From: an uncultured Chitinophagaceae bacterium
GTDB taxonomy: Bacteria; Bacteroidota; Bacteroidia; Chitinophagales; Chitinophagaceae
Direction of reading: 5' to 3'
Length of the DNA stretch: 64,000 nt
Assembly: GCA_937862815.1 (NCBI GenBank)
Contig: CALMED010000024.1
Coordinates: forward strand, 1 to 64,000
The position numbers and the translations under genes were made by a program. Position 1 is the first letter of the stretch, and each line of letters starts with the position of its first letter. The notes under the pieces are model-generated. The model saw nothing but the letters and a program-made list of their open reading frames with translations. It did not search any database and had not been told where the DNA came from. Positions 58,257 through 61,883 of this stretch are shown here, piece after piece.

Positions 58257-59714
58257 ATGCAGCACCAGGATACCGAACAGATCGCCCATCTCTATCTCGC
58301 CCATACCGGCCAGCCGCCGGCATCCATTGAAAAATTACCCCAGAGCGGCAGCGACCGGGTTTATTACCGGGTGCAGGGCCCGTTGGTTTGTATTGCCACC
58401 ACCAACAAAAACGTGCGGGAAAACCAGACCTTTTTACGATTCACCGGTCATTTTGCTGCCTGCGGCTGCCCGGTGCCCTCCATCCTGGCCGTGAGTAAGG
58501 ATGAACGTATTTATCTGCAGGAAGACCTGGGGGATGTGTCGCTGTTGCAGGAACTGGAACGGCAGGGTTACACCGATGCGGTGTACGCCTTGTTTCAGCA
58601 AAGTCTGCAGCAACTGGCGCATATGCAGATCAGGGGCCATGATCAGTTTAACTACGAGTGGTGCATCACCTCGCAGGAGTTTGGCAAGCAGGCCATCCTG
58701 GCCGATTTGCTGTACTTCAAATATTATTTTCTCGACACCCTTAAAATACCGTACGACAAAGAGCGGCTGGTGGATGATTTTGAAGTGCTGAGTATTTACC
58801 TCGCCCGGGTAGACCACAAGTATTTTATGTTCCGCGATTTCCAGAGCCGCAACATCATGGTGCGGAACGGGCACGTGCATTTTATCGATTACCAGGGCGG
58901 CATGAAGGGAGCCATTCAATACGATGTGGCCTCCCTGCTCTGGCAGGCCAAGGCCGAGTTGTCCGGCGAATGGAAAAACGGGTTGCTGGAATATTACATG
59001 GATTGCGTGGAGAACGTGCTGCAGGCAAAAATTGACCGGAACCGCTTTGTGAGCCAGTACAACGGGTATGTACTGATCCGCCTGTTACAGGTGCTGGGCG
59101 CTTACGGTTTCCGTGGCCTGTTTGAGCGAAAAGCCCATTTTCTCACCAGCATACCGCTGGCACTGCGCAACCTCAAATGGTTTTTGCAGAACAAACAGGT
59201 GGGTATCAGTATTCCCGAGTTTGAACGCCTGCTGGCGCTGGTGGTGGAAGATGCGGTCATCGCCCGCTTTGAACCACCCCGCGCCGCGCCCGACACACCG
59301 CTGAGCATACGCATCAACAGTTTTTCCTATAAAACCACCGGTATTCCGCCCGATGAGTCGGAAAACGGGGGGGGCTTTGTGTTTGACTGCAGGGGTATTC
59401 TGAATCCCGGCCGGATAGAAGAATACAAACAACTCACCGGCCGCGACAAGCCCGTGAAGGATTTCCTGGAGCAGCAGACCCAGATGCCGGTTTTTCTCAA
59501 CAGCGTATACAATCTCATTGATCTCACCGTGGAAGATTACATGCGGCGTGGTTTTTCGGATCTGCAGGTGAGTTTTGGCTGCACCGGCGGGCAGCACCGC
59601 AGCGTGTACGCTGCCGATGCGCTGGCCCGCTACCTCCGCAATAAGTACGGGGTGAAAACAGATGTGCGTCACCTGGTGCAGGATGCCAAAAACTGGAACA
59701 ACTCACAAGCCTGA
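58257..59714 (+). CDS. APH-family sugar kinase (AmgK-like) fused to a RapZ C-terminal domain
   Basis: The 485-residue protein has two domains. Residues 1 to about 335 are an aminoglycoside-phosphotransferase-like kinase with the catalytic loop FRDFQSRNIMV and the metal-binding FIDYQGG, as in the MurNAc/GlcNAc anomeric kinase AmgK. Residues about 350-480 match the RapZ C-terminal domain: FDCRGILNPGR, GRDKPVKDFL and FGCTGGQHRSVYAAD. The RapZ domain binds glucosamine-6-phosphate in E. coli. A MurU-like gene follows, so the pair likely makes UDP-MurNAc from recycled sugars. A TTG-N18-TTCCTTTG promoter-like pair lies 60 bp upstream. Confidence 0.88.
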   Translation: MQHQDTEQIAHLYLAHTGQPPASIEKLPQSGSDRVYYRVQGPLVCIATTNKNVRENQTFLRFTGHFAACGCPVPSILAVSKDERIYLQEDLGDVSLLQELERQGYTDAVYALFQQSLQQLAHMQIRGHDQFNYEWCITSQEFGKQAILADLLYFKYYFLDTLKIPYDKERLVDDFEVLSIYLARVDHKYFMFRDFQSRNIMVRNGHVHFIDYQGGMKGAIQYDVASLLWQAKAELSGEWKNGLLEYYMDCVENVLQAKIDRNRFVSQYNGYVLIRLLQVLGAYGFRGLFERKAHFLTSIPLALRNLKWFLQNKQVGISIPEFERLLALVVEDAVIARFEPPRAAPDTPLSIRINSFSYKTTGIPPDESENGGGFVFDCRGILNPGRIEEYKQLTGRDKPVKDFLEQQTQMPVFLNSVYNLIDLTVEDYMRRGFSDLQVSFGCTGGQHRSVYAADALARYLRNKYGVKTDVRHLVQDAKNWNNSQA

Positions 59715-59715
59715 G

Positions 59716-59906
59716 TATGGAATCCTCACGGGCGGGCGCACAAAAGATGAGCATATGAAATACCCGCGAGCGGAAGCAAACAGCTGGTACGAAAGATCAC
59801 GGGTCGTACTATATGGCCGCTGACAACTGTTAAAATGATAACATGAAATGCCCACGGGCGGATGCGTACGGCCGGAACGCAAGATCATTGGGCATTCCAT
59901 TTGGCC
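59716..59906. repeat. Cluster of imperfect palindromic repeats between the kinase fusion and the MurU-like gene
   Basis: Two direct copies of about 65 bp (59753-59817 and 59841-59906) share ATGAAAT, CCC-C, GCGGA, AAGATCA and TGGCC in the same order, and a partial third copy (59716-59750) begins two bases after the stop codon. In the last copy ATGAAATGCCCA (59843-59854) pairs with TGGGCATTCCAT (59889-59900) with one mismatch, so each copy can form a hairpin. There is no coding potential. Confidence 0.65.
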
Positions 59907-59917
59907 ATTAAAAACCA

Positions 59918-59932
59918 GCCGCCAAAGGCGGC
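59918..59932 (+). promoter_or_regulatory. Leader hairpin before the MurU-like gene
   Basis: GCCGCC-AAA-GGCGGC forms a perfect 6-bp stem 18 bp before the start codon. It has no T-tract. It could influence translation of the nucleotidyltransferase. Confidence 0.4.
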
Positions 59933-59950
59933 GCACTAAAGAATATTCAA

Positions 59951-60667
59951 ATGAAAGCCATGATTTTTGCCGCGGGGCTCGGCACCCGTTTCAAACCCTG
60001 GACCGATCAGCATCCCAAAGCGCTGGCCCTGGTGAACGGCACACCGCTGCTGCAGCGCAACATCGAATACCTGCAGCAATACGGCATAACCGATGTGGTG
60101 GTGAATGTGCATCATTTTGCCGACCAGGTGATCGAAGCCGTGGAGCGCAGCAAGGGCTGGGGCAGCCGCATCACCATCAGCGATGAACGGGGTGAACTGC
60201 TGGAGACCGGCGGCGGCTTGCTCAAAGCCCGTTCCCTGCTGGAATCAGAAGTGCCGTTTCTGACCCTCAACGTGGACATCCTCACCAACCTCAACATTCA
60301 TGCCCTGCTGCAGTTTCACCGGCATCACCAGCCGCTTATTTCATTTGGGGTTACCAACCGTCTCACTTCCCGCAATTTCCTGTTTGATTCCGAACATCGC
60401 CTTTGTGGCTGGCGCAACCGTACCACGGGTGAAGAACGTATTTCCATCTCCAAGCCGGGTTTGGTGGAACGGGCCTACAGTTGCGTGGTGGTGATGGAGC
60501 CCCGGGTGTTTGGATTGATCCGGCAACAGGGGAAATTTTCCATTACCGACACCTACCTGGATCTGGCAGCTGAGCACGTGATCCTGGGCTATGAACACAG
60601 TGGCGACCTGCTGGTGGATGTGGGAAAGCCGGAGAGTGTAGCGGTGGCGGAGGCGATGTTTTCTTAA
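59951..60667 (+). CDS. Nucleotidyltransferase, MurU-like (MurNAc-1-P uridylyltransferase type)
   Basis: The 238-residue product starts with the NTP-binding motif MIFAAGLGTRFKPWT and has the conserved PKALALVNG Lys, the ELLETGGGLLKA motif and the metal-binding Asp in FLTLNVDILTN. Length and motif spacing resemble Pseudomonas MurU, which uses UTP to turn MurNAc-1-phosphate into UDP-MurNAc. It lies after the AmgK-like kinase fusion, the same gene order as amgK-murU in other bacteria. Other sugar-1-phosphate nucleotidyltransferases cannot be ruled out from sequence. Confidence 0.86.
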   Translation: MKAMIFAAGLGTRFKPWTDQHPKALALVNGTPLLQRNIEYLQQYGITDVVVNVHHFADQVIEAVERSKGWGSRITISDERGELLETGGGLLKARSLLESEVPFLTLNVDILTNLNIHALLQFHRHHQPLISFGVTNRLTSRNFLFDSEHRLCGWRNRTTGEERISISKPGLVERAYSCVVVMEPRVFGLIRQQGKFSITDTYLDLAAEHVILGYEHSGDLLVDVGKPESVAVAEAMFS

Positions 60668-60731: not shown

Positions 60732-61883
60732 TTACACTTTAATATAAATCTTCCTCCGGTCCAACCAATAGCAAATAGCCCAATACATGACAATCATACT
60801 CACCGCATAGAAGAGCGAACCATTCTCCGGGATACCCGGAATCTGTTTGCAGATTGTATCGTAGTACCAGCCAAAGGGGCTGAGATAACGGGGCGAGCCA
60901 TCAGGGGTAAAGCCGTTGGGGATGCGGATCAGGCCCAGCAGCCGTGGTAAAAAGCCGCTCAGTACAAAAATGAACAACGGATTTTTCCCGAACACATCAA
61001 AAAAGCGGGTCCACCATCCGCGAACCTGCCGGAACTCAACCAGGTAGATGAGGGTGGCAATGGTATAGATGGCCAGGCCGGTGGTATACAGGGTATAGGA
61101 ACTGGTCCAGATTTTTTTGTTGATGGGGAAAACGGCCCCCCAGGCCAGCCCGGCAACCGACAGTACGGTGGCGGCCACAAAAAGGCCGGTTACCATTTCA
61201 TAGGTCTTGCCTTTCTGCTGGATGTAGTCGCCCACCAGGTAACCAAAGATGACCTGGGCGATGGCGGCGAAACTGCTCATCAGGCCCTCCGGGTCGAAGG
61301 GAACCCCCTCCCCCTTGTACAGGTGGGCGGCACCCAGGATGGCTTTGTCCAGTTCCGTTCCAAACCAGCCCTGCAGGCTGTAGGGGTCCCCCGGTGTTCC
61401 GGCCCACAGGCAGAGCACCCAGTAAAACAATAACAAAACACCGGCGGCCACAAAGGCGCCCCGGGGCTTCAGGTAATACACCAGAACGGATGCAAAAAAG
61501 TAACAGAGGGCGATGCGTTGCAGTACACCCATGATACGGATATTTTCCAGTGTCTTGAAAATCAATTTGTTATCGCTCCATTTGACAAACGGGCTCCAAT
61601 GGAGCAACAGTCCGATACTAAAGATGAGAACAGTGCGTTTTAGTACTTTCCGCCAGAATGGGCCGGGACCGCCTGCCTGCAGCCGGGGCATCACAAACGC
61701 CATGGCGTTTCCAACGGCAAACAGGAAAAAGGGGAATACCAGATCGGTGGGGGTGCAGTCGTGCCAGGGAGCGTGCTTGAGCGGAGCGTACATGTGCGAC
61801 CAGGAGCCGGGGTTGTTGACCAGGATCATCAGGGCCACGGTGGCGCCGCGGAAGACGTCGAGGGAGTAGAAACGTTGTTGCAA
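60732..61883 (-). CDS. HGSNAT-like membrane acyltransferase (DUF5009/NagX group)
   Basis: The 383-residue membrane protein has about eleven hydrophobic segments and the family start MQQRFYSLDVFRGATVALMI, with LVNNPGSW, HDCTPTDLVFPFFLFAVG (catalytic His/Asp region), GVLQRIALCYF and NPLFIFVLSG. Relatives include human heparan-alpha-glucosaminide N-acetyltransferase, which moves acetyl groups across a membrane to glucosamine, and bacterial NagX. The start codon is TTG at 61883; the family N terminus supports it and no ATG fits. It is convergent with the MurU-like gene. Confidence 0.88.
   Translation of the reverse strand: MQQRFYSLDVFRGATVALMILVNNPGSWSHMYAPLKHAPWHDCTPTDLVFPFFLFAVGNAMAFVMPRLQAGGPGPFWRKVLKRTVLIFSIGLLLHWSPFVKWSDNKLIFKTLENIRIMGVLQRIALCYFFASVLVYYLKPRGAFVAAGVLLLFYWVLCLWAGTPGDPYSLQGWFGTELDKAILGAAHLYKGEGVPFDPEGLMSSFAAIAQVIFGYLVGDYIQQKGKTYEMVTGLFVAATVLSVAGLAWGAVFPINKKIWTSSYTLYTTGLAIYTIATLIYLVEFRQVRGWWTRFFDVFGKNPLFIFVLSGFLPRLLGLIRIPNGFTPDGSPRYLSPFGWYYDTICKQIPGIPENGSLFYAVSMIVMYWAICYWLDRRKIYIKV

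Follow-up and report, generated by a model that had tools for sequence, protein, structure and literature searches.

The product of AnmK is N-acetylmuramic acid 6-phosphate (MurNAc-6P) and, where MurQ is missing, this product needs a phosphatase before the kinase AmgK can act. In Pseudomonas the phosphatase is the HAD enzyme MupP, within a salvage pathway of AnmK, MupP, AmgK and MurU that is set out in PMC13041923 (papers are cited here by PubMed Central number, for statements in the excerpted text of each). For muramic acid salvage in Bacteroidota, no assigned MurNAc-6P phosphatase was found in the literature searched, as far as its excerpted text extends. Here we consider the first 64,000 nucleotides of contig CALMED010000024.1, from an uncultured Chitinophagaceae bacterium; this whole stretch is called the window. 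In it an AmgK-like kinase is fused to the C-terminal domain of RapZ (RapZ_C), the domain of Escherichia coli RapZ and Bacillus subtilis YvcJ, and the fusion is followed by a MurU-like gene. In the reading that we tentatively favour, the RapZ domain would be a phosphatase of sugar 6-phosphates, with MurNAc-6P as the likeliest substrate, that feeds its own kinase and MurU.

A 2018 study of Xanthomonas HpaP by Cui reportedly names ATPase and phosphatase activity in its title. In PMC7073468 the same work is the reference for phenotypes seen when RapZ homologues of distant species are mutated, and B. subtilis YvcJ 'exhibits NTPase and phosphatase activities' (PMC7525490, citing Luciano 2009). For E. 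coli RapZ, a Cx5R(S) phosphatase-type loop has already been remarked upon, and whether RapZ hydrolyses its own ligand was posed as an open question (PMC7199280). RapZ activity is abolished by C247A and by C247S, the -SH possibly having 'a specialised catalytic function', and the density in a RapZ crystal with glucosamine-6-phosphate (GlcN6P) was 'likely a chemically transformed product' (PMC9841335). An anion occupies the Cx5R pocket in E. coli RapZ crystals (PMC5737377). The loop idea is therefore already known, as are AmgK and RapZ_C themselves. In the literature searched there was no text joining RapZ with AmgK, nor RapZ with Bacteroid*, phosphotransferase and fusion; the constant pairing of the two and its likely meaning are not described there, and the tie of RapZ_C to AmgK and MurNAc-6P was not found.

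The locus is made up of the following features.

58257..59714, + strand: fused gene, AmgK-like APH kinase plus RapZ C-terminal domain (485-aa open reading frame, ORF)
58329..58997, + strand: APH kinase core, aa 25-247 (Pfam PF01636)
59304..59672, + strand: RapZ C-terminal domain, aa 350-472 (Pfam PF22740)
59580..59603, + strand: CTGGQHRS, aa 442-449, the Cx5R(S) loop (sequence and AlphaFold2 model)
59715..59950, + strand: 236-bp gap between the fusion and the MurU-like gene, containing a degenerate 75-bp direct repeat of 72% identity
59951..60667, + strand: MurU-like sugar-1-phosphate nucleotidyltransferase, 238 aa (NF045761 and PDB matches)

The joining of a kinase to a RapZ C-terminal domain, put forward in a first-pass annotation of this DNA, is borne out from several sides. 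A Pfam scan matches the fusion protein to PF01636 (E 2.2e-13) and PF22740 (E 1.4e-32, 112.9 bits, cut-off 27) over the stretches given above, and finds no match to the P-loop N-terminal domain PF03668; neither this protein nor the MurU-like protein has a HAD match in the Pfam and NCBIfam scans. The closest curated NCBIfam family for the kinase part is AmgK (NF045759, aa 55-307, E 2.8e-14), at 53 bits, far below the cut-off of 550. In a PDB sequence search both parts of the protein have matches, with E. coli RapZ C-terminal domain 5o5s at E 1.8e-15 and the AmgK-like APH protein 3csv at E 2.3e-6. The AlphaFold2 model of the entire fusion has a predicted local distance difference test score (pLDDT) of 95.1 and a predicted template modelling score (pTM) of 0.87, and its best PDB fold match is the APH-type 3csv. 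The kinase part carries RDFQSRN at aa 193 and FIDYQ at aa 209, which we take to be the APH catalytic loop and the Mg-binding Asp; R193, D194, N199 and D211 are invariant among 74 sequences. The fusion recurs in 21 other genomes at 38-61% identity (alignment A1), so that neither a frame error nor a misassembly can explain it.

The second gene is co-directional with the fusion, and its MurU-like character, also claimed at first pass, has held up: MurU is the top of 23 NCBIfam families for it (NF045761, E 1.1e-35, 123.6 bits, below the cut-off of 250), and a sequence search matches it to the PDB MurU 8hhd (E 2.1e-19). Since residues 1-236 of its 238 align with 8hhd and 4y7t, it is a minimal nucleotidyltransferase along its full length. 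With AmgK as the nearest curated family and a MurU-like neighbour, the further suggestion of a cell-wall amino-sugar salvage kinase is probable.

Across genomes, RapZ_C keeps constant company with an AmgK-type kinase. Two overlapping samples were searched, 247 Bacteroidota genomes (the phylum sample) and 187 genomes of the class to which genome G124 belongs (the class sample), with 75 RapZ_C genomes in their union. PF22740 was found in 27 of the 247, and all 27 carry an AmgK-type kinase in a search (E up to 1e-40) with a kinase model, A2, for which the kinase sequences came from 16 of them. The RapZ N-domain PF03668 was above its cut-off in none of the 247, there being two weak matches below it. 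In the class sample RapZ_C is present in 59 genomes, all of them among the 63 that bear the kinase (E up to 1e-30). Kinases without RapZ_C comprise, in the phylum sample, one strong match (genome G009) and 21 weaker ones in a single clade, f17; in the class sample they are limited to four genomes, G009 and three of no more than 94% completeness.

The arrangement of the two parts is variable. In the phylum sample the kinase and RapZ_C are fused in 22 genomes and adjacent in four (in the order kinase, RapZ_C, MurU), and in one RapZ_C lies apart; a MurU-like ORF lies within 1.5 kb of the RapZ_C ORF in 21 of the 27. By coordinates, the class sample has 19 fused, 13 adjacent and 27 apart. All of these last fall in families f40 and f48, and 25 have the two genes on different contigs. 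Where they share one, RapZ_C and kinase are 1.18 Mb apart in G341, a single-contig genome, and 547 kb apart in G254, so that the separation is not merely contig breakage. A tree of the C-domain has four switches between the fused and separate states, at least two of them by well-supported branches (counted before loci L063 and L091 were relabelled); because many forks of the tree are open, only repeated fusion or fission is claimed.

The wider family was sampled by a profile scan of genome contigs with the family alignment. At least 584 places code for something related to all or part of the protein, a number that may include ordinary RapZ. The best 80 were retained, and every one of them matches across nearly the full length. 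They are mainly from Bacteroidota, with others in records of metagenome-assembled genomes (MAGs) named Ignavibacteria, Calditrichia, Delongbacteria, Elusimicrobia and Acidobacteria. Within flanks of up to 10 kb, MurU is the strongest recurring neighbour, at 48 of the 80 loci against 8 for the next protein cluster, NagX and polysaccharide genes not having been sought individually. Among the 78 loci with a clustered fusion ORF, 48 have a MurU-family ORF, 46 of them on the same strand; it starts between -135 and +535 bp relative to the end of the fusion, and in 27 of the 46 same-strand cases no more than 13 bases past the last codon. It is missing from 26 loci despite 700 bp or more of sequence downstream, and the remaining 4 end too soon to tell. 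A MurU-like ORF is a common partner of the family both in the phylum sample (21 of 27) and here (48 of 78).

Some further arrangements were seen at individual loci. On Nocardiopsis and Streptomyces plasmids (L156, L157) the RapZ C-terminal domain stands alone, at about 125 aa, with the Cys-x5-Arg-Ser loop and with no RapZ N-domain. At three loci in families f40 and f48 (L143, L144, L148) the gene after a lone RapZ_C codes for an MFS transporter by Pfam; none of these three copies, candidates for AmpG, has an NCBIfam match. A gene for a DUF885 protein lies directly upstream of the kinase-RapZ_C pair at both f44 loci (L145, L150), and on a Desulfosarcina plasmid (L158) rapZ is annotated as two pieces ahead of a PTS IIA gene.

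What the RapZ domain does in this company may be approached through its predicted structure and its pocket. When the C-domain is modelled alone, RapZ is the sole significant Foldseek match (16 chains), with 5o5s at 1.6 A root-mean-square deviation (rmsd) and 36% identity, and in the fusion model CTGGQHRS sits between a strand (435-442) and a helix (448-464). The likeness of the fold might suggest that the domain acts as in E. coli, binding small RNA (sRNA) and controlling glmS, with the kinase part secondary, the more so as the E. coli C-terminal domain binds RNA by itself (PMC5737377). The RNA-binding domain is stated to be confined to Enterobacteriaceae (PMC7073468). In the alignment the C-terminal basic tail of E. 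coli RapZ is not kept in the window protein, nor are H190, R238 (Phe) or K251 (Gln), numbering these residues as in E. coli RapZ; C442, R448, S449 and D377 below are numbered as in the window protein. An RNA-regulator role was rejected as the principal explanation on these grounds, and we regard it as very improbable.

The pocket itself is largely retained. In all 27 Bacteroidota RapZ_C domains C247, T248, G249, H252 and R253 are invariant, as are D182, R184, N188, P189, S254 and H276, and the position of H190 is Gly. No variation at D182, R184, N188, C247, H252, R253, S254 and H276 is seen in an alignment of 12 sequences that span Pseudomonadota, Bacillota, Actinomycetota and Bacteroidota. 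A larger set of 137 loci was chosen by a loop motif that fixes TGG.HR, making those positions untestable there, and that allows S, A or T in place of the Cys; most were first found by patterns including the loop, and some overlap or share a genome. Cys is present in all 137, the H190 position is Gly in 135 and Val in 2, and in 133 the residue after it is Arg or Lys. H190 is retained by all of five canonical RapZ proteins (E. coli, Aeromonas, Azospirillum, Paracoccus and Enterococcus), which are split from the AmgK-linked group by further changes near the pocket: W191 to Arg or Lys, N236 to Arg, R238 to Phe, and an insert ending GGG. These changes hint at another ligand, and one may guess that positive charge next to the pocket would favour the acidic lactyl group of MurNAc.

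The domain could bind GlcN6P or, with greater likelihood, another amino-sugar phosphate (MurNAc-6P or N-acetylglucosamine 6-phosphate) without turnover and tune the kinase, matching salvage to precursor supply. We hold this to be a real, if lesser, possibility. The E. coli C-terminal domain binds GlcN6P with a dissociation constant of 10 nM by surface plasmon resonance (PMC7073468), five of the six residues of the pocket are invariant, and fusion and adjacency would suit a regulatory domain. The first-pass annotation had suggested that the kinase is tuned by, or reports on, amino-sugar phosphate levels, and had named missing GlcN6P-pocket residues, by alignment with E. coli RapZ, as evidence to the contrary. 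The outcome is divided: a ligand-binding RapZ domain is present with five of six residues kept, and the loss of H190 to Gly, together with the differences at adjoining positions from the five canonical proteins, weakens the case for GlcN6P as the signal. The E. coli H190A mutation abolishes GlmZ cleavage, an experiment that tested sRNA control and not GlcN6P binding (PMC9841335). The separate RapZ_C gene that lies apart from the kinase and yet co-occurs with it in 27 of the 59 class genomes (two families) fits a pathway enzyme better than a sensor acting in cis. Moreover, the two lone actinobacterial plasmid copies keep Cys-x-Gly-Gly-x-His-Arg-Ser, with the loop Cys, Arg and Ser, even where T248 is lost. 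The Cys-x5-Arg-Ser core suits a catalytic role no less than a sensing one: the kept residues are those that would be expected of a phosphatase loop of this kind, and the changed ones those expected of a new ligand.

Domain make-up, conservation, predicted fold, the company of RapZ_C and kinase and the MurQ pattern described below are observed, and we infer both catalytic activities, the substrate and the role of each residue. The enzyme would be a two-domain peptidoglycan-salvage protein whose N-terminal APH domain carries out the AmgK reaction, the phosphorylation of N-acetylmuramic acid at C1, the product then being converted by MurU to UDP-MurNAc. The RapZ domain would be a cysteine-dependent sugar-6-phosphate phosphatase in which C442 of the loop C442-TGGQH-R448-S449 attacks the phosphate while R448 and the loop amides hold it, possibly assisted by an invariant acid such as D377. 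It would strip the 6-phosphate left by AnmK from MurNAc-6P, giving free MurNAc to the kinase, and so do the job of the unrelated MupP.

The distribution of AnmK and MurQ links the system to muramic acid. RapZ_C is present in all 8 phylum-sample genomes that have AnmK without MurQ, compared with 11 of 164 that have both, 2 of 14 with MurQ alone and 6 of 61 with neither; the corresponding class-sample fractions are 46/58, 4/99, 2/22 and 7/8. Fisher tests of this pattern against RapZ_C, uncorrected for relatedness, give 7e-9 (phylum) and 8e-21 (class), and the RapZ_C genomes with AnmK and without MurQ span nine family codes (f1, f4, f15, f33, f40, f44, f48, f50 and f51). Absence of MurQ by itself tracks RapZ_C, which is found in 53 of 66 MurQ-negative against 6 of 121 MurQ-positive class genomes, and in 14 of 69 against 13 of 178 in the phylum sample. 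It is the combination of AnmK without MurQ that is telling. Clade f17, one genus of 21 genomes with a more distant kinase match (E 3.9e-45 to 7.9e-41), has none of RapZ_C, AnmK or MurQ. The four f17 loci inspected all read AmgK-type kinase, MurU, NamZ (an exo-muramidase) and sodium symporter, and the nearest NCBIfam family of one of these kinases (L115) is AmgK, at 110.9 bits. This route should supply unphosphorylated MurNAc, and RapZ_C is missing in that one clade.

Several results weigh against a MurNAc-6P phosphatase, or limit the evidence for it. AnmK was tried as a simple predictor of RapZ_C and rejected, there being no enrichment (19/27 with RapZ_C vs 153/220 without it in the phylum sample, 50/59 vs 107/128 in the class sample). 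RapZ_C genomes without AnmK number 8 of 27 and 9 of 59, so that MurNAc-6P from AnmK cannot be the entire story, and RapZ_C is kept in 9 of the 10 class genomes that have the kinase and lack AnmK. Conversely, 12 of the 58 class genomes with AnmK and without MurQ have no RapZ_C, all 12 being at most 95% complete. The window's own genome has both AnmK and MurQ, the latter giving MurNAc-6P another outlet here. A search of 14 genomes with TIGR01449, for HAD phosphatases of the Gph kind, gave HAD matches in all 14, none above the cut-off, and another enzyme could thus perform the phosphatase step. No protein-tyrosine phosphatase (PTP), low-molecular-weight PTP or rhodanese fold is among the best 50 of 290 Foldseek matches to the C-domain, so that what links the loop to phosphatases is its sequence, its predicted secondary structure and the comment in print, and not the fold. 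Model A2, derived as it was from genomes with RapZ_C, may have missed some kinases that lack this partner. The statistics ignore phylogeny: two families account for the 27 'apart' cases and a single genus for the f17 contrast, and some genomes are common to both samples. Given the RapZ_C genomes without AnmK, the HAD proteins and the MurQ of the window's genome, the substrate may extend beyond the AnmK product, or the domain may sense.

Around anmK, the window's genome contains two 14-kb stretches (L119 and L120, on contigs C5 and C7) that share 13,348 bp at 100% identity, inverted, and the two contigs are nearly the same size (206,689 and 206,768 bp). The assembly looks redundant, which may account for its 8.5% contamination value.

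A different sugar might also be involved: the RapZ domain could act on or sense another sugar phosphate, with the kinase and MurU-like protein making not UDP-MurNAc but some other nucleotide sugar, such as UDP-N-acetylglucosamine from N-acetylglucosamine 1-phosphate, or a surface-polysaccharide sugar. The kinase (53 of 550 bits) and the MurU-like protein (123.6 of 250) score far below the equivalog cut-offs, and both AnmK and MurQ are absent from 6 of 27 and 7 of 59 RapZ_C genomes. The surroundings in the window could be read in the same way. A gene for a NagX-like transmembrane glucosamine N-acetyltransferase (60732-61883, - strand; NF046061, 156 bits, cut-off 480) is convergent with the MurU-like gene, and further downstream a NusG-like gene starts at 1.6 kb and a polysaccharide export gene at 2.1 kb. 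However, among curated families the kinase part comes closest to AmgK and the second gene to MurU, the distribution of AnmK and MurQ connects the system with muramic acid, and MurU is the one protein cluster that recurs near many of the 80 relatives, in a survey that did not seek NagX and polysaccharide genes individually. We consider a different sugar unlikely.

If the phosphatase reading is right, a single polypeptide performs two steps of muramic acid salvage, and the phosphatase step of this salvage in Bacteroidota is filled. It is conceivable, and we suggest it with reserve, that RapZ_C is at root an amino-sugar-phosphate phosphatase, the missing MurNAc-6P phosphatase of Bacteroidota and some other phyla, fused or co-inherited with AmgK, and that the E. 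coli RNA regulator is a later use; a well-studied RNA regulator would then have grown out of a sugar-phosphate enzyme. To the question of hydrolysis by RapZ, the kinase-RapZ_C family offers a pathway, a guess at the substrate (MurNAc-6P) and an internal control in the kinase on the same chain. Even if the phosphatase reading is false, the constant pairing with an AmgK-type kinase implies that the RapZ_C domain has a job outside RapZ.

The comparison with described systems can be drawn along four lines. With cysteine-dependent protein-tyrosine phosphatases the window protein shares, in its model, a strand-Cx5R(S)-helix loop and, within the Foldseek matches considered above, not the fold. With RapZ and YvcJ it shares the C-terminal domain, the Cx5R-S loop and D182, R184, N188 and H276, and it differs in having no P-loop N-domain or basic tail, in the replacement of H190 by Gly, W191 by Arg, N236 by Arg and R238 by Phe, and in the insert ending GGG. 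Like the Pseudomonas AnmK-MupP-AmgK-MurU route, the locus has an AmgK-like kinase followed by a MurU-like gene, with AnmK in its own genome, and the system is frequent where MurQ is missing; unlike that route, the kinase bears a RapZ C-terminal domain, there is no HAD domain in either protein, and the AmgK and MurU scores are low. Finally, Tannerella forsythia provides an AmgK/MurU pair from within Bacteroidota which, expressed in E. coli, served as the positive control for labelling with MurNAc probes (PMC13041923), and a MAG labelled Tannerella sp. (L096) carries the fusion.

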